From Candidatus Dormiibacterota bacterium (lineage in GTDB: Bacteria; Chloroflexota; Dormibacteria; Aeolococcales; Aeolococcaceae), in assembly GCA_036495095.1 (NCBI GenBank), contig DASXNK010000037.1, forward strand, positions 1-58,461: a stretch of DNA of 58,461 bases, in the 5' to 3' direction. The translations under genes were made by a program, and so were the position numbers. A model generated the notes under the pieces. It did no database searches, was not told the origin of the DNA, and saw nothing but the letters and a program-made list of their open reading frames with translations. Below, in pieces: positions 43,257 through 58,461 of this stretch (its first letter is position 1; every line of letters begins with the position of its first letter).

Positions 43257-44762
43257 TCAGCGCCCGGGGGGAGCGGCGACCGGCAGCGGGCCGTCGATGC
43301 CCGCGAGGGCGGTGACCAGGCCGTCCACCGCCCGGGTGGCGGTCTCGAGCGCCTGGTCGTCGAAGCCGCTGGTCGCCCGGCGCTCGCACACCACCACGGC
43401 CAGCACCTCGCCGTCGCGCACCACCGGGAGCAGCAGGGTGGAGCTCATCTCGATGTTGGTGCGCCGCTGGGGCCGGTGGGAGGCGGACTCGGTCCAGAGC
43501 GCGGGGCGCTGCCCGGCCACCACCCGGGCGAGCAGGGCGCCGGGCACGGCCCCGCCGCCGGCATGGGGGCCGGCGGGGAGGAGGTAGGCGCGGTCGGCGC
43601 TCACCGCCGCGGCGAGCTCGGCGAGGGCGGCCTGGACGCCGCGGTTCACGGCGACGTCGGTCCACGCCGACGGGCGGCGCTGCACCACCCGGAGGTTCAG
43701 GGCCGCGTTCGCCGCCATCGCCACCAGCGCCGCCACGGCCCCGGCGGCGTCCGCCGGCCGGCCGGTCTCGACCAGGATCGCGTAGCTCGAGTACATCAGC
43801 GCCCCGGACAGCGCCGCGCCGCGCAGGTAGGAGGCGAGGCCCTCGCCGCCGGCGCGGCGGCGCCGGTCGGAGTAGGTCCAGAGGCGGTTGAAGGTGGTGT
43901 TCCAGGCCAGCGCCACCGCGTAGGCGGGCACCACCGCGAGCAGCGGATGCACACCCACCGGGCCGCTGAGGAGGGCGAGCAGCGGCAGGAAGACGAGCAG
44001 CCCGCTGATCCCCACCAGGCCGAACTTCCAGCGCCGTGCCGACCCCTTGACGTCGAGGAAGAGCGAGCGGAGGTGGCGGAGGTAGAGGAGGCCCTGGCGG
44101 GCGCTGGCCTTGCTGGTGCCCCGCTCCCGGGGCATGAACCGCAGGGGCACGTCCACCACCCGCACCTCGCGGGGCAGCAGCACCAGCAGCTCGAGCAGGA
44201 TCTTGAAGCCCACCGGCCGGAACTCGATGCCGTCGGCGAGGGCGCGGCGGCAGAGGAAGAACCCGGAGAGCGGGTCGGTGCTGCGCCGCGCCTCGGTGAA
44301 GAGGCTGCGCGCCACCGCGGTGGCCCCGCGGCTGACCAGCCGCCGGGTGGCGCCGTCGAGGCCTCCCCGCGACCCGCCCTCGACGTAGCGGCTGGCGACC
44401 ACCAGGTCGGCCCCGGCGGTGGCCGCCTCGAGCATCGCGGGGATGACCTCCGGGGGATGCTGGAGATCCGCGTCCATGACGCAGACGAAGCTGCCGGTGG
44501 CGAGGCGGAGGCCGGCGACGACCGCGGTGCTCAGGCCGCCGGAGCGCTCGGCGCCCTGGCGCAGCAGGCAGCGGACCGACCCGCCGGAGCCGCCGGCGAG
44601 GGCCTCGAGCTGCGCCGGGGTGCCGTCGTCGCTGTCGTCGACGAAGCACAGCTCGGCGGCGATGCCCTCGAGCGCGGAGCGCAACCGCTCGACCAGGACG
44701 GGGAGGTTGGCCGCCTCGTTGCGGGTGGGGATGACCACGCTGAGCAGCGGCGTCGTGGGCAT
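43257..44762 (-). CDS. GT2 glycosyltransferase - GtrA - GAF fusion protein
   Basis: A 501-residue three-part protein. Residues 1-240 are a GT2 polyprenyl-phosphate sugar transferase like dolichol/undecaprenyl-phosphate mannosyl transferases, with SVVIPTRNEAANL, VDDSDDGT and the metal-binding MDADLQHPP (D97, D99). Residues 245-360 form a four-helix GtrA membrane domain (KFGLVGISGLLVF, NTTFNRLWTY). Residues 370-490 look like a GAF sensor domain (SSTLLLPVVRDGEVLAVVVCE). The GT2-GtrA pair is known for envelope glycan and lipid modification; the GAF addition is unusual. ATG 44762 (MPTTPLLSVV) is the start; the frame is open to 44834. Confidence 0.85.
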   Translation of the reverse strand: MPTTPLLSVVIPTRNEAANLPVLVERLRSALEGIAAELCFVDDSDDGTPAQLEALAGGSGGSVRCLLRQGAERSGGLSTAVVAGLRLATGSFVCVMDADLQHPPEVIPAMLEAATAGADLVVASRYVEGGSRGGLDGATRRLVSRGATAVARSLFTEARRSTDPLSGFFLCRRALADGIEFRPVGFKILLELLVLLPREVRVVDVPLRFMPRERGTSKASARQGLLYLRHLRSLFLDVKGSARRWKFGLVGISGLLVFLPLLALLSGPVGVHPLLAVVPAYAVALAWNTTFNRLWTYSDRRRRAGGEGLASYLRGAALSGALMYSSYAILVETGRPADAAGAVAALVAMAANAALNLRVVQRRPSAWTDVAVNRGVQAALAELAAAVSADRAYLLPAGPHAGGGAVPGALLARVVAGQRPALWTESASHRPQRRTNIEMSSTLLLPVVRDGEVLAVVVCERRATSGFDDQALETATRAVDGLVTALAGIDGPLPVAAPPGR

Positions 44763-44851
44763 GGCCGGCAGCATACGGCGCCCGGCGGCCGCGATCCCGG
44801 CAGGCCCGGCACTCGACACCGTTCCGTGACGCATCGGGTTGGAGGGTCACC

Positions 44852-44857
44852 TATACT
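44852..44857 (+). promoter_or_regulatory. -10 element of the Mce operon
   Basis: TATACT lies 24 bases before GTG 44881. A GTGACG sequence (44826-44831) is the nearest -35-like match, with an overlong 20-bp spacer. The divergent GT2 gene starts at 44762. Confidence 0.5.
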
Positions 44858-44880
44858 CAGCCTGCACCCCGGGGGATGGC

Positions 44881-45735
44881 GTGGCCGTGGTGCGCCAGCG
44901 AGAGCAGCACCGCCCGCCTTCGGGCCGGCTGGAAGTCGATGCAAAAGACGGTTCCGTGGTAGCCCGTGCACGCCAGGGCCTCACCACGCTCGGCGAGCAG
45001 TCGATCCTCCTCGCGCAGGCGGTCCGGGGGATCTTCAGCCGGCCCTTCTACGTCGCCGAGTTCCTCGAGCAGTGCCGGTTCATCATGACCGTCTGCTTCG
45101 TGCCGCTCCTGCTCACGGGCTTCGGCTGGGGCGCCATCGTCGCCCTCGAGGCGGGCACCTTCTTCAAGATCGCGAGCGCCGACTACCGGGTGGGCGGCTT
45201 CATGGTTCTCGCCAACGTCCGCGAGTTCGCCCCGGTCGCCACCGGGCTGATGGTGGCCGCGGTGGCGGGCACCGCGATCACCGCCGACCTCGGCGCCCGG
45301 AAGGTGCGCGACGAGCTCGAGGCGCTCTCGGTGATGGGGATCAGCAACATCGCCTTCATCGTGGTGCCGCGCTTCGCCGCGATGACGCTGATGACCGCCC
45401 TCTACAACATCCCGATGATCGCCTTCACCTGCCTCAGCGGGTACCTCGCCTCGGTGCACCTGGTCGGCGTCAACCCCGGCGCCTTCCTCAGCACCTTCTT
45501 CACCGAGGGCACCCTCCAGGACCTCTACGGCGGCGAGATCAAATGCATGATCTTCGGAGTCCTGGTCTCGATCATCTGCTGTTACAAGGGCATCACCGCC
45601 CGGGGCGGCGCCGAGGGGGTGGCGCGAGCGGTCCACCAGGCGGTGGTCGCGTCCTTCATCAGCATCCAGGTCTTCGAGTACCTGTACACGCCGACGGTGC
45701 TCGCCCTCTTCCATTCGAGCAACGTGCTGCGGTGA
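44881..45735 (+). CDS. YrbE/MlaE-family permease, first Mce permease
   Basis: A 284-residue inner-membrane permease of the Mce/MlaE family, which together with a second YrbE and an ATPase drives lipid transport through the Mce assembly. About five or six helices are visible. The family sequence TAITADLGARKVRDELEALSVMGI is the coupling region and lies in the middle as expected. GTG 44881, with GGGGGAT upstream, is the chosen start; GTG 44956 is possible and would shorten the protein to 259. The stop is followed after 10 bases by the second permease gene with its GAGG motif. Confidence 0.9.
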   Translation: MAVVRQREQHRPPSGRLEVDAKDGSVVARARQGLTTLGEQSILLAQAVRGIFSRPFYVAEFLEQCRFIMTVCFVPLLLTGFGWGAIVALEAGTFFKIASADYRVGGFMVLANVREFAPVATGLMVAAVAGTAITADLGARKVRDELEALSVMGISNIAFIVVPRFAAMTLMTALYNIPMIAFTCLSGYLASVHLVGVNPGAFLSTFFTEGTLQDLYGGEIKCMIFGVLVSIICCYKGITARGGAEGVARAVHQAVVASFISIQVFEYLYTPTVLALFHSSNVLR

Positions 45736-45745
45736 TGAGGAGCTG

Positions 45746-46540
45746 ATGGCCGTCGCCGCCCTGTCCCGCGTCCGCGGCTGGACCCGCACCCTCGGCGAGG
45801 TCGTCCAGTTCGCATTCGTGACCTTCATCCAGATCCCGCAGGCGCTGCGGTACATGCGCGAGGTGTGGTGGTACGCGGCGTTCATCGCCATCGGCTCCAC
45901 CCCGGTCGCGCTGGTGCTCACCACCGCCACCGGCGCCGAGTGCAGCGTCGAGGCCTACTACTCGCTCTCCCAGATCGGCGCCCTGACCCTCACCGGGGTC
46001 TTCAACGCCATCTGCGACACCCGCGAGATCACTCCGCTCTTCTTCGGCTTCGCCATCGGCGCCAAGGTGGGCTGCGGCCTTGTCGCGGAGCTCGGCACCA
46101 TGCGGGTCAACGAGGAGATCGACGCCCTCGAGATCATGAGCATTCCCACCCGGGTCTACCTGGTGAGCGTGCGCATGCTCGCCTGCTTCATCGTCCTCCC
46201 GTTCATGTACCTGCTGTCGCTGGCGGTGTCGTACCTGGGGTCGTACCTGGTCCAGCACTTCCAGATCCGCCAGGTGTCCGACGGGGTGTACTTCGACTAC
46301 TTCTGGCGCTTCCTCAACACCCAGGACCTGGTCTTCTCGATGACCAAGGCGGTGGTCTTCGCCATCCTCATCGTCAGCGTCGCCGTCTACTACGGGTATA
46401 ACGTGACCGGGGGTGCGGTGGGCATCGGCCGGGCGGTGGCCAAGACGATGGCGACCGCCCTGGTGATGGTGGTGGTGGTGAACGCCGTGCTCACCCAGGT
46501 CTTCTGGGGGAACAACCCCAACCTTCCGATCCAGATCTGA
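45746..46540 (+). CDS. YrbE/MlaE-family permease, second Mce permease
   Basis: A 264-residue partner of the first permease. The coupling region is present as KVGCGLVAELGTMRVNEEIDALEIMSIPTRVYLVSVRM, where E-L-G-x-M-R-V-x-E-E-I-D-A-L-E is the MlaE hallmark. Five or six hydrophobic helices surround it. ATG 45746 follows GATGAGGAG. Together with the other permease it should form the heterodimeric membrane channel under the Mce ring. Confidence 0.92.
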   Translation: MAVAALSRVRGWTRTLGEVVQFAFVTFIQIPQALRYMREVWWYAAFIAIGSTPVALVLTTATGAECSVEAYYSLSQIGALTLTGVFNAICDTREITPLFFGFAIGAKVGCGLVAELGTMRVNEEIDALEIMSIPTRVYLVSVRMLACFIVLPFMYLLSLAVSYLGSYLVQHFQIRQVSDGVYFDYFWRFLNTQDLVFSMTKAVVFAILIVSVAVYYGYNVTGGAVGIGRAVAKTMATALVMVVVVNAVLTQVFWGNNPNLPIQI

Positions 46541-46557
46541 CGAGGCGACTGCAAGCG

Positions 46558-47409
46558 ATGACCTCCTTCCAGGTTCCCCCGGCCGGGGTGGCGACGCCGG
46601 CGGGTGGCCGGCTGAACCAGCCGGGCACCAACCAGTCGGTGTCCACCTGGAACATGGACCCGGTCATCGAGCTCAAGGACCTGCGCAAGGCCTTCGGCTC
46701 CTTCAAGGTCCTCGACGGGGTCACCTGCCGCATCCCCCGGGGCGGGGTGACCGCGCTGATGGGCCCGTCGGGGACGGGGAAGAGCGTCAGCCTGCGCCAC
46801 ATCGTCGGCCTGCTGATGCCCGACGCCGGCGACATCGTGGTCGACGGCAGGTCGGTCCCCCACCTGAGGGAGAAGGAGATCCTGGAGCTGCGTCGTTCCA
46901 TCGGTATGCTCTTCCAGGACGGCGCCCTCTTCTCGTCGATGAACCTCTACGACAACGTCGCCTTCCCCCTCCGCCAGCACACCAAGATGGGGGAGGCCCA
47001 GATTCGCGAGACCGTCATCGCGCGTCTCAGCGAGGTGGGCCTGGCGGGCGCCGAGAAGCGGATGCCCAACGAGCTCAGCGGCGGCATGCGCAAGCGCGCG
47101 GGCTTCGCCCGGGCGCTGGTCATGGAGCCCAAGATCCTGCTCGTCGACGAGCCCGACTCCGGCCTCGACCCGGTGCGCACCACGCTGCTCTGCGACCTCA
47201 TCAAGGAGATCGCCACCAAGTACCAGGCGACCGTGGTGGTGGTCACCCACAACGTCTTCGCGGTGCAGCGCATGGCCGACTACGTCGGCATCCTCTACAA
47301 GGGGAAGATGCGCCATTTCGGCACCCGGGAGGAGATCGAGCAGTCTCCCGACGAGTTCGTCCGGCAGTTCTTCACCGCCGACTCCGAAGGCCCCCTGGGG
47401 ATGGACTGA
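46558..47409 (+). CDS. Mce-associated ABC ATPase (MlaF/MceG type)
   Basis: A 283-residue ATPase powering the Mce transporter. Walker A is GPSGTGKS, the Q-loop MLFQDGALFSSMNLYDNVAFPLR is typical of MlaF/Mkl proteins, the signature is LSGGM, Walker B is ILLVDEPDSGL and the H-loop is VVTHN. The first about 32 residues are a Pro/Ala-rich extension; ATG 46654 (MDPVIEL) is an alternative start. In mycobacteria the equivalent MceG gene is unlinked, while here it sits between yrbEB and mceA. The C-terminal tail after the core (EEIEQSPDEFVRQFFTADSEG) is as in MlaF. Confidence 0.93.
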   Translation: MTSFQVPPAGVATPAGGRLNQPGTNQSVSTWNMDPVIELKDLRKAFGSFKVLDGVTCRIPRGGVTALMGPSGTGKSVSLRHIVGLLMPDAGDIVVDGRSVPHLREKEILELRRSIGMLFQDGALFSSMNLYDNVAFPLRQHTKMGEAQIRETVIARLSEVGLAGAEKRMPNELSGGMRKRAGFARALVMEPKILLVDEPDSGLDPVRTTLLCDLIKEIATKYQATVVVVTHNVFAVQRMADYVGILYKGKMRHFGTREEIEQSPDEFVRQFFTADSEGPLGMD

Positions 47410-47423
47410 GGCAGCTCGAGAAG

Positions 47424-48563
47424 ATGTCCCGCCGTCCCCTCGCCGCCGGTCTCGCCGTCGCCGCGCTCATCGCGGTTGTGCTGGTCGTCGCCCTCGCCGC
47501 CCCCGGGCTGGCGGGGCGGCCGGCGCACCGGGTCTCCATCACCTACCCCCAGTCGGCGTCGGGGCTGGTGGCGGGGAGCGACGTGCTCGAGGCGGGCGCC
47601 CGGGTGGGCAGTGTGAGCAGCATCGAGCCCACCGCCGAGGGCCACGCCCGCATCGTGGTCGAGGTCGCCGACGCCAGCTGGCCGCTCCACCGCGGAGTGA
47701 CCGCCGGGATCCGGCCGCGGTCGCTGCTCGGCGAGAAGTACATCGACCTCCAGGACGGCCCCGCCAGCGCCCCCGCCTACGACGCCTCCCAGCCGCTGCA
47801 GGCGAGCGCCAGCGCGGTGCCGGTGGAGCTCGACACCTTCCTCAACAGCCTCGACACCACCACCCGTGCCGCCGCGCGCAGCCTGATCAACGACCTCGGC
47901 GCGGGGCTCGCCGGCACCGGCGCCGACCTCAACCAGGCGATCGCCGCCGCCCACGCCAACCTCGACAACCTCGCGACCACGGGGAAGACGCTCAACCAGC
48001 GCGACGCCGACCTCGACCGCATCCTCGTCGGCCTCGACGGGGTGCTGGGCAAGCTCACCCAGAACGACCAGATCACCCAGCTGCAGCAGCTGATCACCAA
48101 CGGGCAGAGGACCCTGAACGCGGTGGAGGCGGAGCGGCAGGCGTTCAGCCGCCAGTTCGTCGACAGCCAGGCGGTGCTCACCGACCTCAACGCCGCCATC
48201 GACCCCGCGGTGGCGAGCATCCGCGACCTCATCCAGCGGGCGCCGAGCCTGGTGAACGGGCTGCAGAGCGAGGCCGGGCTGCTCGCCCAGATCGGCACCA
48301 GCTTCTCCGACGGCACCCTGCAGGCCTTCGAGCAGTCGCTGCTGCGGGGCCCGACCTCGACCGGCGGCGCGCTGGAGTCGGTGCCCCCGGGCACCACCCC
48401 GCTCGGCACCGGGCTGCCGATCTTCCGCATCTGCCTGATCACCCCCACCCCGGGCTCGTGCACCGGCAACGGCTACACCCCGGCGGCGACCAGGCCGGCG
48501 GCATGGATGGACGGTGGCGGCGCCGGCGAGCTGGTCACCCTCGCGGGGTTCATCGGCGCATGA
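47424..48563 (+). CDS. MCE family protein, position A
   Basis: A 379-residue protein with one N-terminal TM helix (about 5-28), an MCE beta-domain (about 38-115; LLGEKYIDLQDG is the conserved end) and a long helical region (about 130-310) that forms the hydrophobic tunnel in such proteins. Two Cys near the C-terminus (RIC...GSC) could form a disulfide. It is the first of six Mce genes; its stop overlaps the next start as ATGA. ATG 47424 has GAAG-type spacing to the ATPase gene stop 14 bases before. Confidence 0.9.
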   Translation: MSRRPLAAGLAVAALIAVVLVVALAAPGLAGRPAHRVSITYPQSASGLVAGSDVLEAGARVGSVSSIEPTAEGHARIVVEVADASWPLHRGVTAGIRPRSLLGEKYIDLQDGPASAPAYDASQPLQASASAVPVELDTFLNSLDTTTRAAARSLINDLGAGLAGTGADLNQAIAAAHANLDNLATTGKTLNQRDADLDRILVGLDGVLGKLTQNDQITQLQQLITNGQRTLNAVEAERQAFSRQFVDSQAVLTDLNAAIDPAVASIRDLIQRAPSLVNGLQSEAGLLAQIGTSFSDGTLQAFEQSLLRGPTSTGGALESVPPGTTPLGTGLPIFRICLITPTPGSCTGNGYTPAATRPAAWMDGGGAGELVTLAGFIGA

Positions 48564-49687
48564 GAAGCCGCTGGAACCTGCCGATCACCGCTCTGTACCT
48601 GGGCTTCTGCAGCCTGGTGCTGTTCTCCATCGTGGCCAGCATCGGCATCAGCTGGCCGTGGCAGCACCCCTACCGGGTCACCGCGGTATTCTCGAGCGGC
48701 GACGGCATCCTCCCCAAGAACGAGGTCTACGTCGACGGCGTCCGGGTGGGGCGGGTCGACGACGTCCAGGCGGTGGGCGGCCAGGCGCGGGTGAGCATGA
48801 CCATCGACGACAGCAATGCCCTTCCCCTCCACCGCGACAGCGGTGCCGAGGTGCGCAAGAAGAACCTGCTCAACGAGACCTACGTCGAGCTCTCCCGCGG
48901 CAGCGCCGCCAGCGGGGAGATGGCCTCGGGCGGGCAGATCGCGGTCGAGCACACCCTGACCCCGGTGGCCATCGACCAGGTGCTCGCCATCCTCGACCCC
49001 CAGACCCGCGACCGCCTCCAGCTGCTGCTGGGCAGCGCCGGCCAGGCGCTCGCCGGGCGCGGAACCGACCTCAACGCCGAGGCGAGCAGCACCAACCGGC
49101 TGCTGGGCTCGCTGAACGGTCCCGCCGCCGTGCTCACCACCCGGCGCCAGCAGCTGCAGGACGTGGTGGTCGAGCTGCAGAAGCTCTACACCACCCTCGC
49201 CGGCCAGCGCGACCAGGTCCGCGACGAGTTCGGCACCTTCAACCAGGTGATGGCTCAGCTCGCCGCCCAGGAGCAGCAGATCGGCGGCACCGTGCAGCAG
49301 GCCGACCTGCTCCTCCAGAACCTCGACGTGCTGGTGAGCGGGCAGGCGCCGAACCTGCAGAGCACGCTGCGGACGCTGCCCGGGGCGCTGGCGAACACCG
49401 CCGGCTTCCTCGACCAGACCAACCGGGTGCTGAGCGGGATCTACCCGTTCCGCGACCAGATCCACGACGTCTTCCCGAACCTCGCCACCTCGTTCGCGGA
49501 CACCGATCCCAACGCCCCCGACCCGCTGTCGCCCGACGGCAAGCAGCACCTCTGGTCGATCTACGCCGTGAGCTGCTTCACCACCTGCAGCTCCACCGGC
49601 ACCAGCACCGCCACCCCCGCTGCGAGCGCGCCGCCGCCCGCCGCCCCCAACGACATCTGGGCGGCGGTGATGGGAGACACCCCGTGA
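48560..49687 (+). CDS. MCE family protein, position B
   Basis: A 375-residue Mce protein with a TM helix at about 8-30, an MCE domain (VDGVRVGRVDDVQAVGG, LLNETYVELSRG) and a helical repeat-like region of about 200 residues. The C-terminal tail has two close Cys (SCFTTC). ATG 48560 overlaps the MceA stop as ATGA; the frame is open upstream only as a shadow. In the ring assembly it would stand beside the other five Mce subunits. Confidence 0.9.
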   Translation: MRSRWNLPITALYLGFCSLVLFSIVASIGISWPWQHPYRVTAVFSSGDGILPKNEVYVDGVRVGRVDDVQAVGGQARVSMTIDDSNALPLHRDSGAEVRKKNLLNETYVELSRGSAASGEMASGGQIAVEHTLTPVAIDQVLAILDPQTRDRLQLLLGSAGQALAGRGTDLNAEASSTNRLLGSLNGPAAVLTTRRQQLQDVVVELQKLYTTLAGQRDQVRDEFGTFNQVMAQLAAQEQQIGGTVQQADLLLQNLDVLVSGQAPNLQSTLRTLPGALANTAGFLDQTNRVLSGIYPFRDQIHDVFPNLATSFADTDPNAPDPLSPDGKQHLWSIYAVSCFTTCSSTGTSTATPAASAPPPAAPNDIWAAVMGDTP

Positions 49688-50940
49688 GCCGCCGCCGGTC
49701 GATCGTGAACGCCGTCATGGTGCTGCTCTTCGCCGCGGTGTGCATCGGCGCCATGGAGTTCCTGGCGCTGAACATCGGCCAGCCGAACCCGCTCAGCGCC
49801 GGCTACCGGGTGCGCGCCGTCTTCGCCGACGCCGACGGGGTGCCCACGGCCGCCGACGTGCGCGTCGCCGGGGTGCAGGTCGGCAGGGTCACCGCCGTCG
49901 AGCGCGACGCCGCCCATCCCAACGCCACCGTGGTGACCATGGTGATCAGCGACTCGCGGGCGGTGCCGGTGTACTCGAACGGCACCGCCAAGGTGCGGCC
50001 GAAGACGCTGCTCGGCGAGAAGTACGTCGACCTCGTGCCCGGCGACCGCCGCGGCGAGGAGCTGGCCAGCAACAGCACCCTGCCGGAGAGCAGCACCACC
50101 ACCACGGTGGAGGCCGACCAGATCTTCAACGCCTTCGACGCCCGGACCCGCGAGGAGCAGCGGCTGGTGCTGCAGGCGCTCGACGCCGCCACCCAGCACC
50201 GCGCCGGCGACCTGCAGGCGATCATCCCTCAGCTCCAGCAGGGGGTGGCCAACCTCGTCCCGGTGGCGCAGGTCTACGAGAAGGACAACCCCGAGATGGG
50301 CCGCATCCTCACCAACCTGGCGACGCTGATGGGCACCCTCGGCGACGAGCACCAGCAGCTCGCCGGGCTGCTCGCCAACGGCAACGTCGCCCTCGGGGCG
50401 ATCGCCCAGCGCGACCAGTCGCTGATCACCACCCTGCGCGAGGCCTCGAACGTCGCCGCCGAGCTGAACGCGGCGGCGGCGCCCACCGTCGACGCCCAGC
50501 GCCAGGCGCTGGCGAAGCTCGCCCCCGCGCTCGGCGCCGAGCGTGGCTTCCTGGGGCAGGTGGTCGACCCCAACGCGGGCTGCCCGGGCAAGCCCAACTG
50601 CGGCATCGACGAGGTGTTCACCGGAACCCTGCTCGGCCAGCTGAACTACCCCAACGACCAGCTCACCATCACCACCCCGACCGGGCTGAAGGTGACCCAG
50701 CAGTGGGCCTCGCTCTTCACCCCGCCGGCCGGCCAGCACTCCGCCCTGAACATCGACCTCTCCTTCCACTGCGACACCCTGCAGACCACCCTGAGCCCGG
50801 TGCTCGGCCTGCTCGGGCTGCAGGGCGCCATCGGCACGATCTGCCCGCAGCTCACCGGCCAGGGGGCCGCGACCCACAGCGCGGGCAGCTCCGACCCGCT
50901 GTCGGTGCTGGCCGCCTTCGCCGCGGGGCAGTCGCAGTGA
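49684..50940 (+). CDS. MCE family protein, position C
   Basis: A 418-residue Mce protein. It has a TM helix at about 6-25, the MCE domain (VRVAGVQVGRVTAVERD, TLLGEKYVDLVPG) and a helical region. The C-terminal part contains four Cys (GCPGKPNC, FHC, TIC), enough for two disulfides. GTG 49684 overlaps the previous stop as GTGA. Confidence 0.9.
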   Translation: MSRRRSIVNAVMVLLFAAVCIGAMEFLALNIGQPNPLSAGYRVRAVFADADGVPTAADVRVAGVQVGRVTAVERDAAHPNATVVTMVISDSRAVPVYSNGTAKVRPKTLLGEKYVDLVPGDRRGEELASNSTLPESSTTTTVEADQIFNAFDARTREEQRLVLQALDAATQHRAGDLQAIIPQLQQGVANLVPVAQVYEKDNPEMGRILTNLATLMGTLGDEHQQLAGLLANGNVALGAIAQRDQSLITTLREASNVAAELNAAAAPTVDAQRQALAKLAPALGAERGFLGQVVDPNAGCPGKPNCGIDEVFTGTLLGQLNYPNDQLTITTPTGLKVTQQWASLFTPPAGQHSALNIDLSFHCDTLQTTLSPVLGLLGLQGAIGTICPQLTGQGAATHSAGSSDPLSVLAAFAAGQSQ

Positions 50941-52103
50941 ACCGGCCGCTGACCCTGCTCATCCTCGCCGGGGCGGCCGCCGCCGGCCTCGCCTTCCTCG
51001 GCGGCGGCTCCGACGTCCACCACGTCACCGCGCGCTTCAGCGACGCCGACGGGCTGGTGACCGGCAACGACGTCCGCGTCGCCGGGGTCACCGCGGGCAC
51101 CGTCCAGAGCATCACCGTGGGCGCCGACCCCCGCACCGGCCCCTACGCCGAGGCGGTGCTCAGCATCGACTCGAGCCACTGGCCCCTGCACCAGGGGACG
51201 CACGTCGCGGTGCGCCCCAGGGGCGTCCTGAGCAACGTCTTCGTCGACCTCGGCCCGGGGGCGGCGGGCGCGCCCGCTCTCGGCGACGGCCACGTCTTCG
51301 GCGTCGCCGAGACCAGCAGCCCGGTCAACCTCGACCAGCTCGCCGACGTGTTCAACGCCGACGTGCGCACCGCCATCCGCACCCAGCTGCAGGAGGGGGT
51401 CATCGCCCTCGGCGGCCACGGCGCCACCGACCTGAACACCGCCATCGCTCAGCTCGACCCGCTCACCAACGCGCTGATCCCCCTGACCAACGTCCTCGCA
51501 CAGCGCAGCCCGGAGCTCGACCGGCTCAACGCCGAGTTCGACACCATCACCGCGAAGCTCGCCTCCGAGGACCAGCACCTGCGCGGCCTGATCGCCGGCG
51601 GCAACACACTGCTGGGGGCGCTGGCGGCGAAGCAGCACCAGCTCCAGGGCACCCTCGACCACGCCGCGGGGACGCTGTCCAGCCTCGACGCCGGCCTCCA
51701 GGGTGAGCAGAGCAACCTGGCCGCGATCTTCCAGAAGGGCCCGGGCGCGCTCGACCGCCTGCAGCAGGCGGGGTCGGTGCTGGCGCCGCTGATCCAGGCC
51801 GTCGACCCCCACATCCCGCACCTCGACATGCTCCTCGACGAGTTCGTCAGCGGCACCGGGTACTCGATCAACGGCATCGACACGCTGCGCGTCGACGCCG
51901 TGCTCAACCAGCCCGGACACAACGCTCAGCCGTGCGGCGGCCAGCACACCGCCATCTCGGGCGAGCAGAAGGGGTGTCCCTTCACCCCCAACTACAGGCT
52001 GGGGTCGAGCGACGCCGGCTCCGGCGGCGCCACCCAGGCGGGCGCACCGGCACCGGCCGCGGGTGACGGCGGCAGCTTCGACCTCGCGGGGATGTTCGGA
52101 TGA
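50937..52103 (+). CDS. MCE family protein, position D
   Basis: A 388-residue Mce protein with an N-terminal hydrophobic helix (LTLLILAGAAAAGLAFLGGG), the MCE domain (VRVAGVTAGTVQSITVG, VLSNVFVDLGPG) and a helical region. The C-terminus includes two Cys (QPCGGQ, KGCPF) and a Gly/Ala/Pro-rich tail. GTG 50937 overlaps the upstream stop as GTGA, and its own stop overlaps the next ATG as ATGA. Confidence 0.9.
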   Translation: MNRPLTLLILAGAAAAGLAFLGGGSDVHHVTARFSDADGLVTGNDVRVAGVTAGTVQSITVGADPRTGPYAEAVLSIDSSHWPLHQGTHVAVRPRGVLSNVFVDLGPGAAGAPALGDGHVFGVAETSSPVNLDQLADVFNADVRTAIRTQLQEGVIALGGHGATDLNTAIAQLDPLTNALIPLTNVLAQRSPELDRLNAEFDTITAKLASEDQHLRGLIAGGNTLLGALAAKQHQLQGTLDHAAGTLSSLDAGLQGEQSNLAAIFQKGPGALDRLQQAGSVLAPLIQAVDPHIPHLDMLLDEFVSGTGYSINGIDTLRVDAVLNQPGHNAQPCGGQHTAISGEQKGCPFTPNYRLGSSDAGSGGATQAGAPAPAAGDGGSFDLAGMFG

Positions 52104-53365
52104 TCGGCAGCGCCCGCGGGCCCCGGATCAGCCCCGTCCTCGCCGGCGTCCTCGCCGCCGTGGTGATCGGCGCCGTGGTGCTGGTGATGGGCTGGATCAA
52201 CGTGAACTTCGCCGCCCCCTGGGCGAGCACCCACACCGTGACCGCGCAGGTCATCGACGTCGACGGGATCGCGGTGAGCAGCGACGTGCGCATCGCCGGC
52301 CGGCTGGTCGGCCAGGTCACCCAGGTGATCGCGCGGGGCGACCACGCCGACCTCACCTTCCACGTCGACGGCGCGGAGTGGCCGCTGCCCGCCGACACCA
52401 CCGCGAACATCCGGCTCGCCACCCTGCTCGGCCAGAAGTACGTCGAGCTCGTCCCCGGCCAGGACCGCAGCCACCAGCTCGCCGACAACGGCGTCATCCC
52501 CCTGGTGGCGACCCGGCCGGTGGTCGACTTCGACCAGCTGCTCAACACCTTCGACCCACCCACCCGGCAGGCGCTCACCAACCTGATCAGGACCGTGGGC
52601 GCGGGGGTGCAGGGGCAGGAGGGGAACCTGCAGCAGCTCGTCCCCGGCCTCCGCGACCTCTCGGTGCACAGCCAGTCGCCGACCGCGACGCTGGCCCAGC
52701 ACGACGCCGACCTCAACACCATCCTCGCCAGCCTCGGCACCGTCGCCGACCAGCTGAACCGCAGCCGCAACGACCTCGCCGGGGTCATCGACAACATGAA
52801 CTCGGTGACCGGCGCGCTCGCCGCCAACCCCGATGCGGTGCGCGGCTTCATCAGCAACACCGGCGCGCTGAACCAGACCGCCCACCGGGTGCTCGGCAGC
52901 GGCGGTGCCCCCCAGCTCGCCGCCGGGCTGCAGCAGCTCGCCCCCGTCGCCGGCCAGTTCGACCGCCTGCTCGCGTCGCTGCTGCCCCAGACCCAGGCGT
53001 TCCAGGTCAGCGGGGTGACTCCCGCGATCACGCTCATCCACGAGATCGGCGACGCCATCTCCCAGAGCGACCGCGACGGCTACTTCCTGCGCCAGAACCT
53101 GCTCGGCATCGACTGCAGCGGCCTGCTGCCCACCGGCAGCTGCACCCTGCCCACATCGCTGCCCGCGCAGAGGACCAGTCCGGCGCTGCCCCAGCTGCCC
53201 CAGCTGCCCCAGCTCCCGCTGCTTCCGCTGCTGCCCGGCATCCTCGGCCCGCACCCCGGTCCCACGCTGCTGCCGCCGCTGCTCGGCGGCCTGCTCGGCG
53301 ACTGGTGGCCCACCGGTGGCTCGGGCGCCTCGCTGGCGACCTTCGACCTCTGGGGGGCGCCCTGA
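52100..53365 (+). CDS. MCE family protein, position E
   Basis: A 421-residue Mce protein. The TM helix is at about 12-36, the MCE domain follows (VRIAGRLVGQVTQVIA, LLGQKYVELVPG), then a helical region with QSPTATLAQHDADLNTILASL. Two Cys (IDC, GSC) lie near residue 340. The tail is Leu/Pro-rich with LPQ repeats encoded by three tandem CTGCCCCAG units (53186-53212). No lipobox is visible, unlike mycobacterial MceE. ATG 52100 overlaps the previous stop. Confidence 0.9.
   Translation: MIGSARGPRISPVLAGVLAAVVIGAVVLVMGWINVNFAAPWASTHTVTAQVIDVDGIAVSSDVRIAGRLVGQVTQVIARGDHADLTFHVDGAEWPLPADTTANIRLATLLGQKYVELVPGQDRSHQLADNGVIPLVATRPVVDFDQLLNTFDPPTRQALTNLIRTVGAGVQGQEGNLQQLVPGLRDLSVHSQSPTATLAQHDADLNTILASLGTVADQLNRSRNDLAGVIDNMNSVTGALAANPDAVRGFISNTGALNQTAHRVLGSGGAPQLAAGLQQLAPVAGQFDRLLASLLPQTQAFQVSGVTPAITLIHEIGDAISQSDRDGYFLRQNLLGIDCSGLLPTGSCTLPTSLPAQRTSPALPQLPQLPQLPLLPLLPGILGPHPGPTLLPPLLGGLLGDWWPTGGSGASLATFDLWGAP
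53186..53212 (+). repeat. Three tandem CTGCCCCAG units in the fifth mce gene
   Basis: Perfect 9-bp units at 53186-53194, 53195-53203 and 53204-53212 encode the Leu-Pro-Gln repeat of the Mce protein tail. The count may vary between strains. Confidence 0.8.
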
Positions 53366-54555
53366 TGAGGACGCAGCCCCGGGTGAACCCTGTGACCACC
53401 GGCATCGTGACCATCGCGGTGATCGTCCTGGTGCTCGTCGGCGTGGTCGTCGGGGGCCTGCCCGGCTCGCCGATCCCGGTGCCCTGGAGCCATCACGTCG
53501 AGCTGCGCGCCCAGCTCGCCGACGCCGACTCGCTGGCCCCCCACGCCTCGGTGGAGATCGCCGGGGTGAAGGTGGGCGAGGTGGTCGGCATCGAGAGCCG
53601 CAACGGCGCGGCGCTGGCGGTGATGAACGTCGACTCGCAGTTCGCCGACGTCCACCGTGACGCCACCGTGATGCTGCGTCCCCATGGGTTCTTCGGTCCC
53701 AAGTTCCTCGAGATCGCACCGGGCAGTGCGTCGGCGCCGTCGATCGGCGGCGGCGACGTCATCCCCGAGAAGCAGACGGTGCTCCCCGTCGACCTCGACC
53801 AGATCCTCCACGCGCTCGGGGCGCCGGAGCGAGCGAGCCTGCAGACCGCGCTGGTCCAGCTCGGCCAGGCCGCCGCCGGCCGCGGCGACGACGTCAACCA
53901 CCTGGTCGCCAACGCCCGGACGCTCACCGCCGGGCTGCTCGACCCGGTGCAGGCGCTCGACGCCGTGGGCTCGAACCTCAGCGACATGCTGGTCAAGAAC
54001 GATTCCTTCAACGCCGACTTCGCTCAGGTGCCGCTCGACCAGCTGGTGGCGAGCACCGACCGCACCCTGGCCGCGTTCGCCGCCAACTCCGACCACCTGC
54101 AGTCGCTGCTCTCCCATGCCGACAGCACCCTGACCACCCTCGACACCGCGCTGAGCGGGCAGGGCGGCAACATCCACGGCATCCTCGACCAGGCGCCCGG
54201 GGTGATCGACCGGCTGAACCAGTTCAACGACCTGCTGGCGGCGTTCGGCGCCAACCTGCGCGGACTGCAGCCCGGCCAGCCGGTGGACGCGACCCCCGGG
54301 ATCATCAGCGCCATCGAGAACATCCGGTCGGCGTTCGGGAGCAGCGACCCCTGCTCCAAGAACCCCACCCAGCCGTGCTCGCCCGGCGACAGCCGCCAGC
54401 ACTACGTGCGGGTGGAGACCTTCGGGCTGCTGCCGAACGTCCCGATCCCCTGCAGCGTGCTGCCCGCGGGTCCGCTGAGCAAGCTGCCCTGCACCGCCGC
54501 CGCCACCTCCACCCCGCTGAGCGAGGACACGCTCTCGCTGCTCCTGGGGGCGTAG
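53365..54555 (+). CDS. MCE family protein, position F
   Basis: A 396-residue Mce protein, last of the six. It has a TM helix at about 11-33, the MCE domain (VEIAGVKVGEVVGIES, GFFGPKFLEIAPG) and a helical region containing HADSTLTTLDTALSGQGG. The C-terminal part has four Cys (PCSKNPTQPC, IPC, LPC). ATG 53365 shares one base with the preceding stop (TGATG). A hairpin at 54609-54624 probably ends the operon. Confidence 0.9.
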   Translation: MRTQPRVNPVTTGIVTIAVIVLVLVGVVVGGLPGSPIPVPWSHHVELRAQLADADSLAPHASVEIAGVKVGEVVGIESRNGAALAVMNVDSQFADVHRDATVMLRPHGFFGPKFLEIAPGSASAPSIGGGDVIPEKQTVLPVDLDQILHALGAPERASLQTALVQLGQAAAGRGDDVNHLVANARTLTAGLLDPVQALDAVGSNLSDMLVKNDSFNADFAQVPLDQLVASTDRTLAAFAANSDHLQSLLSHADSTLTTLDTALSGQGGNIHGILDQAPGVIDRLNQFNDLLAAFGANLRGLQPGQPVDATPGIISAIENIRSAFGSSDPCSKNPTQPCSPGDSRQHYVRVETFGLLPNVPIPCSVLPAGPLSKLPCTAAATSTPLSEDTLSLLLGA

Positions 54556-54608
54556 GCGGGAAGCTGGCGGCTCGCCGGGTTCATCCCGTGCCGGCCCTGG
54601 GTTGGCCA

Positions 54609-54624
54609 CACCGGGCGTCCGGTG
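54609..54624 (+). terminator. Hairpin after the Mce operon
   Basis: CACCGG, loop GCGT and CCGGTG form a 6-bp stem 54 bases after the mceF stop. There is no T-tract. The rest of the 54556-54737 gap holds the duplicated leader segment noted at 54629-54662. Confidence 0.4.
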
Positions 54625-54628
54625 GGTA

Positions 54629-54662
54629 CCACCGTGCAAGGAATGCAGGCACGCGTTCGTCG
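54629..54662 (+). repeat. Leader segment repeated before the second pseudokinase gene
   Basis: The 34 bases from CCACCGTGCAAGGAA to TTCGTCG match 56365-56398 at 25 positions without gaps, both lying upstream of the paralogous kinase-fold genes. The shared leader shows that the upstream region was duplicated with the gene, and it may carry a common control element. Confidence 0.6.
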
Positions 54663-54737
54663 GTCAGGGTGGAGGGCACACGCGAGAAGGCGGGATCGGT
54701 GCTCCGTGAGGCGACGGCAGACGGGGTGTGAGCCGAC

Positions 54738-56312
54738 GTGTCTGAGGGTCCCGCGCCGCGGCCGGTGGAGCCGACGACGGCGTGGCGCCGCCGGAGGCCG
54801 CTGCATGGGATATCGGTCGACAGCGGTGATCACACCGACGAGGCGGCCGACGTCACCGGGTTGCGCAGGCTCGCGACTCTCCCCGAGTGGTTGGTGGCAG
54901 CGGGAGAGCCCGATCGGCTGCGTACCTTCCTCAGCCGGGCGGTGCCGGAGTTCACACGGGGCGACCTCGTACTCCACGAGTGCCGTCCGAAGCACTTCCG
55001 GCTGCGGGACACCACGTGGACGTTCCTGTGCCGGGTCAGCGTCGGCGGCCCCGACGGCGAGCGGCGCGACGTGTGGCTCGAGGGGTCGGTCGGCGCTCCC
55101 GGGACGCGGCAGCCCGTTCTCGACGGGCGGGTCGCGGCCTTCGGGTCGGACGCGTGGCGCTGCCTGCTGCCCGCGCTGGGCGTCGAGCTGCGCACCGCTC
55201 CCGCTGACACCGCGGTACCCCTGGTGTCGCAGCTCGAGGATGCCGAGCTGGCACGCGTCCTGTTGGAGAGGGCCATCCAGGACGGCACCCCGGCCTGCGC
55301 CGACCTGCGCATCGCGGCCTGTCGGCCTCGGGTCATGCGCTACGACAGGGGGAGCCGCTGCACTGTTCGCTACCAGCTCACCCACCCCGGAGCGGCGGTG
55401 CGACGAGGCTGGCCGGAGGTGGTCGTGGCCAAGACGTATCGTGACGACACCGGCCAGAACGCCTACCAGGGTATGCGCGCGCTGTGGAGCTCGGAGCTGT
55501 CGCGCTCCTCTGCTGTGGCAATCGCAGAGCCGCTCGCCTACGTGCCCGGGCTGCGCCTGCTCGTCCAGGGCCCCGTCGCCGAAGACCGCACCCTCGAGCG
55601 GCTCATCTGCTCGTCGCTCCCCGCGGGACCGTCGGTCGCACTCGAGGAGCTCCACGACTATCTCGCCAAGGCCGCACAGGGGCTGGCCGCGCTCCACGGC
55701 TGTGGCGTCGCCCTTGGCGAGACCGTGACCCTGGAGGGCGAGGTGGCCCAGATCGAGGCCGTGCTCGAACACCTCGCGGGGGTCGTGCCTGAGCTCTCCG
55801 GGGCGGCCGCGCCACTGCTGGCGCGAGTGGTCGCTCTCGCCGCCGAGCACCGTGCCGATCCGGTCCGGCCATCGCACGGCTCCTTCCGCCCAGCGCAGGT
55901 GCTGCTCCATCGAGGCCGGGTCGGCTTCATCGACTTCGATGCTTTCTGCCAGGCGGAACCCGCCCACGACGTCGCACGCTTCCGGGCCGGCATCAGGGAC
56001 TGCGTGATGCGCGCTCACCTGGCGGCGGGTGGCGGATTCACCGACGCCGCCGTGACCGCCATCGAGGACGTGTGCGATGAGTTCCTGCGGCACTACGCGG
56101 CGGTGGCGCCGGTGTCGAGGAGGCGTGTCATGCTGTGGGAGACCCTCGACCTGATCACCTACGTCGTCCACGCCTGGACCCGGACGAGCCCCGCCCGCCT
56201 GGTCGCCAGGATGCTGACACTCGAGCAGCAGGTGCGTCGCTCGGGTCTCATGGACGCCGGCCGGCAATCAGCCGATCCGCACCGGATCGCCGACAGGCCC
56301 AGGGCGGCGTAG
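54738..56312 (+). CDS. Aminoglycoside-phosphotransferase-fold pseudokinase, copy 1
   Basis: A 524-residue soluble protein. The last 300 residues have the aminoglycoside phosphotransferase fold: N-lobe Lys (VVVAKTYRDD, about K232), hinge region, a catalytic-loop position HGSFRPAQVLL (380-390) and the metal-binding FIDFD (D399, D401). The catalytic Asp of HGDxxxxN is Ser382 and the Asn is Gln387. Gln is seen in some related kinases, but loss of the Asp should abolish phosphotransfer. The first 220 residues (LVLHECRPKHFR, TWTFLCRV) are an unidentified domain. GTG 54738 is the start. It follows the Mce operon and shares about half its residues with the copy at 56541. Confidence 0.8.
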   Translation: MSEGPAPRPVEPTTAWRRRRPLHGISVDSGDHTDEAADVTGLRRLATLPEWLVAAGEPDRLRTFLSRAVPEFTRGDLVLHECRPKHFRLRDTTWTFLCRVSVGGPDGERRDVWLEGSVGAPGTRQPVLDGRVAAFGSDAWRCLLPALGVELRTAPADTAVPLVSQLEDAELARVLLERAIQDGTPACADLRIAACRPRVMRYDRGSRCTVRYQLTHPGAAVRRGWPEVVVAKTYRDDTGQNAYQGMRALWSSELSRSSAVAIAEPLAYVPGLRLLVQGPVAEDRTLERLICSSLPAGPSVALEELHDYLAKAAQGLAALHGCGVALGETVTLEGEVAQIEAVLEHLAGVVPELSGAAAPLLARVVALAAEHRADPVRPSHGSFRPAQVLLHRGRVGFIDFDAFCQAEPAHDVARFRAGIRDCVMRAHLAAGGGFTDAAVTAIEDVCDEFLRHYAAVAPVSRRRVMLWETLDLITYVVHAWTRTSPARLVARMLTLEQQVRRSGLMDAGRQSADPHRIADRPRAA

Positions 56313-56331
56313 CCGATCGCGTTTCACAAGG

Positions 56332-56350
56332 CGGTGGAGGGTCTCCACCG
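56332..56350 (+). terminator. Hairpin terminator after the first pseudokinase gene
   Basis: CGGTGGAG (56332-56339), a 3-base loop and CTCCACCG (56343-56350) form an 8-bp perfect stem, followed by TTTCC. It separates the two paralogues, so the second needs its own promoter. Confidence 0.65.
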
Positions 56351-56364
56351 TTTCCTGCTCCGCG

Positions 56365-56398
56365 CCACCACGCAAGGAAACCCGGTGCACCTTCGTCG
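56365..56398 (+). repeat. Second copy of the duplicated leader segment
   Basis: This segment matches 54629-54662 at 25 of 34 positions. It lies 143 bases before the second pseudokinase start compared with 76 bases in copy 1, so extra sequence lies between leader and gene here. Confidence 0.6.
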
Positions 56399-56540
56399 TT
56401 CGAATTGAGTGGGAACACGGGGCGAGCAACGCCCGCGCTCGTCGCCCGTGCGTGTCGGTACCAGGGCACCTCGCGAGGTTTCGCTCTGATGCGTTGCTGC
56501 CATCCAGATCCAGTTCCGCACACTCTGCCGGTGGGCCGAG

Positions 56541-58127
56541 GTGGCTGAGACACGCGCCCGCCGGTCCACCGACCTGGCAGCGAGGCGGCGCAGCGCCAAA
56601 CCGTCGTCCTCGACGCCCGTCGAGAGCACCGAGCACAGCCGGGAGACCCCCGACGTCCCCGGGTTGGGTCGTCTTGCGACCCTTCCCGAATGGCTGTCCG
56701 CGGCACAGCCCGACCGGCTGCGCGCGGGCCTCGCCAGGGCGCTGCACGAGGTGGCCCGCGGCGATCTCGTCCTCCACGAGTGCGATCCCAGGCACTTCCG
56801 CCCGGACAGCGGCACATGGACGTTCGAGTGCCGGGTCACCTGCGGCAGACCTGATGGAGAGCCCTGGGAGGTGTGGGTCGAGGGCTCGCTGCGTGCCGCA
56901 GGGACGGCGGAGGTCGCTCAGCTCGGGCCGGCAACGGCCTTCGGCTCGGAGGGGTGGCGCTGCCTGCTGCCGGAGCTCGGCGTGGAGTTGCGCACCGCCC
57001 CACCCGACATCGCGTTGCCACTGATGCCAGACCTCACGGATGCCGGACGGGCTCGGGTGCTGCTGGAGGACGCCATCCGGGCCGGCCCCTCGGCCTGCGC
57101 CGACCTGCGCATCGCGGCGTGCCGGCCCAGGGTCATGCGCTATGCCAGGGGCAGCCGGTGCACCATTCGCTACGAGCTCGATGACGCTGGCGCGGCCAGG
57201 GGACGAGACTGGCCCGGCGTGGTCGTCGCCAAGACGTACCGTGACAACCGGGGCGAGAACACATTTCGTAGCATGCGGGCGCTGTGGAGTTCGGAGCTCT
57301 CACGTTCCTCCGCTGTCGCGATCGCCGAGCCGCTCGCCTATCTGCCCGAACTGCGGCTGCTCGTCCAGGGCCCCGTCGCCGAGGACCGGACGCTCAAGGA
57401 GCTCATCTGCTCGTCGGTCCGGCAGAGAACGCCGGTGGCGCGCGACGAGGTCGACGAGTACCTGGGCAAGGTCGCAGTGGGGCTCTCCGCCCTCCACGGC
57501 TGCGGCGTCGCCCACGGCGAGACCATCACCCTGGAGGGCGAGGTGGCCGAGATCCGCGTCACCATCGAACGCCTGGCCCGCCGCTTCCCCGGGCTTGCCG
57601 GGGTGGGCGCGCCGCTGCTGGCCCGAGTGGCCGACCTCGCCGAGAAGCACCCTGCCGGTCCCGCCCGGCCGTCGCACGGCACCTTCCGCCCCGCGCAGGT
57701 GCTGCTGCATCGGGGAAGCGTCGGCTTCATCGACTTCGACGACTTCTGCCTGGCGGAACCAGCCCTGGACGTCGCGCGCTTCCGAGCCGGTGTCAGGGAC
57801 TGCTGGATGCGCACCCACGTGGCAGGTGACGGCGTCATCCCGAGCCCGGAGGCGACGGCTGCCACCATCGCCGATCTGGAGTCGGTCTGCGAGCGGTTCC
57901 TGCAACACTACGAGGCCGCGGGACGTGTGTCGAGAGAACGCGTGATGCTGTGGGAGACGCTCGACCTGCTCACAGACGTTCTCCACGCATGGACGAGAAT
58001 GAGCCCGGCCCGCCTGCTGGCGGGGATGCTCACACTCGACGATCACCTGCGCAGGCGCGGGCTCATCGCCGACCTCGAGAGGTCGACCGATGCGAGGAGT
58101 GTGACCCCCCGGTTCCGCGCCGCCTAG
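56541..58127 (+). CDS. Aminoglycoside-phosphotransferase-fold pseudokinase, copy 2
   Basis: A 528-residue paralogue of the preceding protein. Conserved blocks common to both include LATLPEWL, GDLVLHEC, WRCLLP.LGVELRTAP, ACADLRIAACRPRVMRY, MRALWSSELSRSSAVAIAEPLAY, and LLVQGPVAEDRTL. The catalytic loop reads HGTFRPAQVLL, with Thr381 for the catalytic Asp, while FIDFD (D398, D400) is kept. Both copies lost the same residue in different ways (Ser and Thr), which suggests selection for a non-catalytic or altered role. GTG 56541 is used. The next gene, 29 bases downstream, is a ChoD-like oxidoreductase. Confidence 0.8.
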   Translation: MAETRARRSTDLAARRRSAKPSSSTPVESTEHSRETPDVPGLGRLATLPEWLSAAQPDRLRAGLARALHEVARGDLVLHECDPRHFRPDSGTWTFECRVTCGRPDGEPWEVWVEGSLRAAGTAEVAQLGPATAFGSEGWRCLLPELGVELRTAPPDIALPLMPDLTDAGRARVLLEDAIRAGPSACADLRIAACRPRVMRYARGSRCTIRYELDDAGAARGRDWPGVVVAKTYRDNRGENTFRSMRALWSSELSRSSAVAIAEPLAYLPELRLLVQGPVAEDRTLKELICSSVRQRTPVARDEVDEYLGKVAVGLSALHGCGVAHGETITLEGEVAEIRVTIERLARRFPGLAGVGAPLLARVADLAEKHPAGPARPSHGTFRPAQVLLHRGSVGFIDFDDFCLAEPALDVARFRAGVRDCWMRTHVAGDGVIPSPEATAATIADLESVCERFLQHYEAAGRVSRERVMLWETLDLLTDVLHAWTRMSPARLLAGMLTLDDHLRRRGLIADLERSTDARSVTPRFRAA

Positions 58128-58156
58128 CCTGACGATGTAGTTCACGAGGTCGCGCG

Positions 58157-58461
58157 GTGAGCCACGACCACGACGTTCTCGTCGTCGGAAGCGGGTTCGG
58201 GGGAAGCGTCAGCGCGCTGCGCCTGAGCGAGAAGGGCTACCGGGTCGGCGTCCTCGAGGCCGGCCGGCGCTTCGGACCGGACGACCTGCCCCGGACCAGC
58301 TGGCGGCTGCGGCGGTACCTCTGGATGCCGCGCCTCGGGCTGCGTGGCATCCAGAGGATCACCCTGCTCGACGACGCCATGATCCTGTCCGGCTGCGGCG
58401 TCGGCGGTGGGTCGCTGGTCTACGCCAACACCCTCTACGAGCCGCTCGCCCCCTTCTACCG
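58157..58461 (+). CDS. GMC oxidoreductase, ChoD-like (partial, runs off the window)
   Basis: The first 101 codons of a flavin oxidoreductase. [33 protein letters not shown] holds the dinucleotide-binding GxGxxG and the adenine-ribose Glu. [21 protein letters not shown] and [22 protein letters not shown] match the early part of mycobacterial ChoD. Family members oxidise 3-beta-hydroxysteroids or other alcohols. GTG 58157 with GAGG 7 bases upstream is the start. Placed after a Mce importer, it hints at sterol or other lipid-alcohol use; that is inference. Confidence 0.85.

Follow-up and report, generated by a model that had tools for sequence, protein, structure and literature searches.

Two adjacent paralogous genes, K1 and K2, coding for proteins that resemble kinases but lack a catalytic Asp residue, lie between an operon for an Mce lipid importer and the beginning of a ChoD-like oxidase gene. 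Their position raises the question of whether they belong with these neighbours and, if not, what kinase-like proteins of this type might do. Pseudokinases have been much studied in eukaryotes but little in bacteria, where those of the small-molecule-kinase group have received the least attention. The stretch of DNA analysed here (hereafter called the window) is one entire contig of 58461 bases (G000:C37, where G000 denotes the genome of the window), and the genes concerned are the following:

44839-54555, forward strand: Mce operon with two MlaE permeases, one ATPase and six MlaD-type ORFs (context)
54738-56312, forward strand: K1, predicted kinase-fold pseudokinase of 524 residues (ORF, Pfam APH, model)
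56541-58127, forward strand: K2, paralogue of K1, 528 residues (ORF, Pfam APH; orthologue at another locus in the congeneric genome G002)
58157-58461, forward strand: GMC/ChoD-like oxidase gene, truncated by the contig end (context)

ORF and profile analyses placed K1 and K2 between a complete Mce importer and a ChoD-like oxidase gene, as had been described in a sequence-only reading of this DNA; the full-length orthologue of the oxidase in G001, another congener, carries the GMC_oxred_N and GMC_oxred_C domains. Both ORFs are intact, each with more than 520 codons, and their products are 63% identical. The start codons agree (GTG TCT GAG in K1, GTG GCT GAG in K2 and ATG GCT GAG in the K2 orthologue of G002) and the upstream leaders of these three genes resemble one another, suggesting that each gene was duplicated together with its own upstream region. 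K2 and its G002 orthologue share approximately 82% identity over readable codons, with a dN/dS ratio of 0.35-0.44, compared with 0.31-0.35 for two mce genes in the same pair of genomes. We ruled out that the G002 copy is frameshifted, as its interruptions correspond to scaffold gaps filled with N. The ORFs, matching starts and dN/dS values thus bear out that K1 and K2 are real, paralogous and intact genes.

Both proteins match the Pfam APH signature (PF01636) with scores of 36.9 and 34.1 bits for K1 and K2 (E = 4e-9 and 3e-8, respectively), above the curated cut-off of 23.2. Searches of solved structures with single sequences yielded chance matches only, whereas profile searches retrieved kinases of the APH group. 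An AlphaFold2 model built with 23 family members (pLDDT 85, pTM 0.84) predicts a bilobal kinase fold, in agreement with the aminoglycoside-phosphotransferase fold proposed initially. The modelled kinase part of K1 (approximately residues 161-507) is most similar to maltokinase (Mak/Pep2; 5jy7_M, Z 24.9, 3.4 A over 313 residues), with which K1 and K2 share about 15% identity. Other matches include an actinobacterial glucosamine kinase (Z 24.2), a 25-hydroxy steroid kinase (Z 22.5), the class V lanthipeptide kinase LxmK (Z 21.1) and choline kinases. Weak similarity to LxmK exists around the catalytic loop, and the score obtained with its NCBIfam equivalog profile, 30.1 bits, is far below the cut-off of 315 bits. 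The motifs of the active site are located as follows:

55875-55898, forward strand: catalytic loop of K1, HGSFRPAQ, with Ser382 at the position of the catalytic Asp (His codon at 55875; alignment)
57675-57698, forward strand: catalytic loop of K2, HGTFRPAQ, with Thr at the position of the catalytic Asp (His codon at 57675; alignment)
55932-55940, forward strand: metal-binding motif DFD of K1, residues 399-401, kept (alignment)

The HGD catalytic motif of active choline/aminoglycoside-type kinases, present in maltokinase and glucosamine kinase, is absent from K1 and K2. As the sequence-only reading had it, the ATP-binding Lys (Lys232 of strand beta-3, in VVAKTY) and D399-F-D401 are kept while Ser (HGS, K1) or Thr (HGT, K2) replaces the catalytic Asp; the His and Gln residues of the loop are retained as well. 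The catalytic Asp does not appear to have moved within the loop, since the alignment of the eight-member clade described below revealed no relocated or replacement acidic residue in the catalytic loop of any member. Pseudokinases are recognized in sequences by the loss of at least one of the Lys, catalytic Asp and metal-binding Asp residues in a retained fold, and by this definition K1 and K2 are pseudokinases.

The N-terminal domain, reported as unassigned, indeed has no Pfam assignment, but the profile comparison and the model make it assignable to a degenerate copy of the kinase N-lobe. The layout of K1 is then:

54861-55235, forward strand: N1, residues 42-166, probable degenerate second copy of the kinase N-lobe (hhalign of N1 with N2, model)
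55236-55607, forward strand: N2, kinase N-lobe proper, with the codon of beta-3 Lys232 at 55431-55433 (alignment, model)
55608-56258, forward strand: kinase C-lobe, residues 291-507 (Pfam APH, model)

The hhalign comparison of N1 with N2 gave a probability of 98.3% (E 2.3e-14) over 105 collinear columns, whereas N1 or N2 aligned with segments of the C-lobe at 0.4% at most. In the model, N1 consists of a helix, three long strands and two short strands, in the order of the true N-lobe minus its C-helix. The best interpretation of N1 is therefore a duplicated and degenerated kinase N-lobe. Used alone, it had no Foldseek match among solved structures at E 0.001. A second structure search with N1 placed the N-lobe of the 25-hydroxy steroid kinase first (Z 7.5, 104 residues, 4.6 A), a match that is weak by itself, ahead of NTF2-like folds and CDC7 N-lobes (Z 5-6); maltokinase was absent among the matches listed. 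The case for the duplication comes from the hhalign comparison. The layout of N1 is also in line with the maltokinase cap as published (PMC4306142), which has the same order of a helix, three long strands and two short strands; the cap is 88 residues long versus about 125 for N1, and no direct structural match between them was obtained.

The location of the pair between mceF and the oxidase gene might suggest that K1 and K2 are partners of these systems, i.e., sterol- or lipid-binding proteins or regulators of uptake, akin to an inactivated steroid kinase. The presence of the 25-hydroxy steroid kinase among the fold matches of the whole model and as the best row for N1 alone, and the position of the G002 copy near ferredoxin and P450 genes, would be in line with this idea. 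However, synteny largely refutes it. The following segment is missing at the orthologous site in both congeners:

54556-58130, no strand: segment that G001 and G002 lack at the orthologous site (synteny)

In G001, whose mce operon is orthologous to that of the window (88-97% protein identity), the oxidase gene follows 32 bp after the operon, and the gap is 14 bp in G002, without the kinase genes in either case. Homology to G001 ends at position 54551 and restarts at 58131. Both congeners are less than 70% complete, and the genomes compared are mostly draft assemblies. The K2 orthologue of G002 is found at a separate locus, followed by genes for a ferredoxin, a ferredoxin reductase and a P450; the sequence just upstream of this orthologue corresponds to the K1-K2 spacer, such that a K1 gene may lie ahead of it, past the end of the contig. 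No MlaE was found in G101, G488 and G509, the remaining genomes that harbour members of the clade. The GC3 values of K1 and K2 are low (0.87 and 0.86, respectively) compared with those of the 22 other genes of the window (0.964, SD 0.013). The two empty sites and the low GC3 indicate that the presence of K1-K2 next to the mce operon results from an insertion, seen in G000 only. In addition, K1 and K2 have separate leaders, and the fold match to the steroid kinase is generic, with sugar kinases scoring higher; that enzyme is moreover an active kinase (PMC8449060), unlike what is predicted for K1 and K2. The suspected functional link to Mce/ChoD is thus contradicted by the empty sites, the different location of the G002 copy and the three genomes without MlaE, a lack of association with mce genes in relatives being the outcome that the sequence-only reading itself had named as refuting. 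K1 and K2 are not part of the Mce system, their neighbourhood being incidental and created by insertion in this lineage, and a role as Mce or oxidase partners is very unlikely. The analysis thereby takes away a tempting, unsupported connection with sterol uptake while identifying the N-terminal domain.

We aligned the members of the family (52 rows) and built a tree (51 rows). The HGD motif, or an equivalent with Asp, is present in 34 of the 51 tree rows. K1 and K2 belong to a clade of eight proteins (support 100/100) that also includes the G002 copy, the products of three G101 genes, one of G488 and one of G509. The catalytic Asp is missing in all eight (8/8), and it is exactly one catalytic residue that the clade lacks. 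Over the whole family, the Asp status requires three changes, at least two of which are forced by well-supported branches. Outside this clade, L135 and L137 represent another Asp-less lineage (HGGFKPSQ and HGGFKASQ), in genomes of the same phylum devoid of MlaE.

All members of the clade have K232, H380, Q387, D399, D401 and D411, as do most HGD-containing relatives, and the residues shared by the clade and its active relatives are those for the fold, ATP and metal. At a further 21 positions, many of which lie near the hinge or within the N-terminal domain, the clade has an invariant residue that is rare outside. Such clade-wide invariance indicates that the proteins are under constraint. Together with the purifying selection on K2, close to the level of the mce genes, it suggests that K1 and K2 are maintained.

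The clade is rare and patchy, as we found it in 2 of 110 genomes of the class of the window genome and in 3 of 158 in the class of G101. With the odd base composition of K1 and K2, this distribution could mean that they are decaying genes of a transferred segment, heading for loss. The two long intact frames, a dN/dS of about 0.4, near that of mce genes, the invariant residues and a confident model all argue against decay, which is highly improbable. As for the origin of the pair, we detected no relative of K1/K2 in viral contigs or phage records, no PADLOC match that would indicate a defence system, and only distant matches, at ~25% identity, in plasmids.

Some kinase-fold proteins devoid of the usual catalytic residues are enzymes nonetheless, such as SelO, which transfers AMP. 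The retention of all ATP- and Mg-binding residues in K1 and K2, and the replacement of Asp by small residues in several lineages that keep the DxD motif, would similarly be compatible with an unusual catalysis, be it the transfer of AMP or that of phosphate by means of another base. However, the residue at the Asp site varies between Ser, Thr and Ala even inside the clade, and Gly381 is replaced by Arg in some members, unlike what would be expected of a conserved new active site. We thus regard unusual catalysis as unlikely.

The genomic company of the family provides other indications. In G101, at least five paralogues are arranged in tandem, and the HGD motif is intact in the first of them; their contig could be mis-binned. 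The G488 copy sits in a contig of 557 kb, in which genes for a GT28 glycosyltransferase, several kinases, an ABC exporter-kinase fusion, the clade member and an Asp-keeping kinase follow one another. The frame of that clade member overlaps the end of the gene for the fusion, and in G509 the clade member lies ~50 bases before an Asp-keeping kinase, although gene boundaries in the related loci are approximate, as a simple gene caller mis-called some frames. Pairs of HGS and HGD paralogues are also found in L032 and L033. G000 itself has six family members, K1, K2 and four others on contig C105 (13.7-19.7 kb), where this four-kinase stretch, without any member of the K1/K2 clade, lies beside a GT28 enzyme and adjoins an ABC exporter. 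More generally, related clusters include glycosyltransferases and an epimerase. The family thus provides natural sets of active and dead paralogues within one operon, with a loss repeated at least twice.

A precedent exists among the spore kinases YtaA, CotS and YutH, which belong to the choline/aminoglycoside-kinase group and include pseudokinases (PMC2860764). Like the K1/K2 family, bacterial spore kinases have lost the Asp repeatedly and independently and are encoded in clusters with glycosyltransferase and nucleotide-sugar genes (PMC2860764). In contrast with K1 and K2, they are spore coat proteins of sporulating Gram-positive bacteria, and according to their description the spore pseudokinases lose several motifs, while the K1/K2 clade loses the Asp alone (PMC2860764).

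Our preferred reading, which we put forward tentatively, is that K1 and K2, relocated beside the mce operon, bind ATP but do not phosphorylate, and that they partner sugar-type kinase paralogues in the assembly or export of glycoconjugates. Judging from sequences and model, they represent a rare clade of the choline/aminoglycoside-kinase group, with a probably duplicated N-lobe, that has lost the Asp but kept the Lys, His, Gln and DFD residues. They would bind ATP-Mg without performing the normal phosphorylation of a hydroxyl group, and their partnership with active paralogous kinases may be allosteric or involve ligand binding. Glycoconjugate synthesis or export would be the role of that partnership. 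The pair was acquired or moved, its insertion between mceF and the oxidase gene having taken place in this lineage. This reading is suggested by the presence of the clade, outside the genus, in multi-kinase operons, the best-resolved of which includes a glycosyltransferase and an ABC exporter, and by the precedent of the spore-coat kinases (PMC2860764). Several observations count against it. K1 and K2 are not on the same contig as the C105 kinases, and the clade loci of G000 and G002 are both near oxidation genes, possibly related to steroids or lipids, which could be meaningful. Furthermore, most genomes with an active paralogue are devoid of this clade, indicating that the active kinases do not generally depend on it.

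Alternatively, K1 and K2 might hold a sugar or a sugar nucleotide by themselves, without partner kinases, for instance as carriers or feedback sensors. That the nearest solved folds are those of maltokinase and glucosamine kinase, and that related clusters encode glycosyltransferases and an epimerase, is consistent with this proposal, but the conserved Lys and DFD residues suggest that nucleotide binding matters, making it distinctly unlikely. A broader version of the partner-kinase reading, possible if doubtful, is that the arrays of kinases and pseudokinases with doubled N-lobes form, with the glycosyltransferase and the ABC exporter, an undescribed machine for glycoconjugate assembly. The dead ATP-binding kinases would be its switchable partners or catalyse a new ATP-dependent reaction, and K1 and K2 would be detached, relocated members. 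Our literature search found no paper on this type of operon.

Other arrangements were observed along the way. The ABC exporter and APH-type kinase found directly 5' of a pseudokinase-clade member are in one frame of 1229 residues (L130:11749-15438). Double kinases belonging to this family, in which a single frame contains two kinase loops (such as HGDFYDDQ and HRDFYHDQ), occur at L120, L121 and L122 (and L119). In another family of the class, several genomes (loci L035, L037 and L039) share a gene order in which a related kinase with HGD (HGDYKYNQ) and a doubled N-lobe lies near putative transketolase-like and helicase-like genes.

Operons of mce genes with paired MlaE permeases occur at three separate places in G000, on contigs C37, C24 and C196 (L078, L079), and the operon of the window is the one orthologous to those of relatives. 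Head to head with it, a gene on the reverse strand (43257-44834) codes for a GT2 glycosyltransferase-GtrA-GAF fusion. This fusion, at 57-91% identity, has the same head-to-head placement in several other genera of the family (L072, L073, L075 and L076), and it accompanies mce far more consistently than the kinases do.
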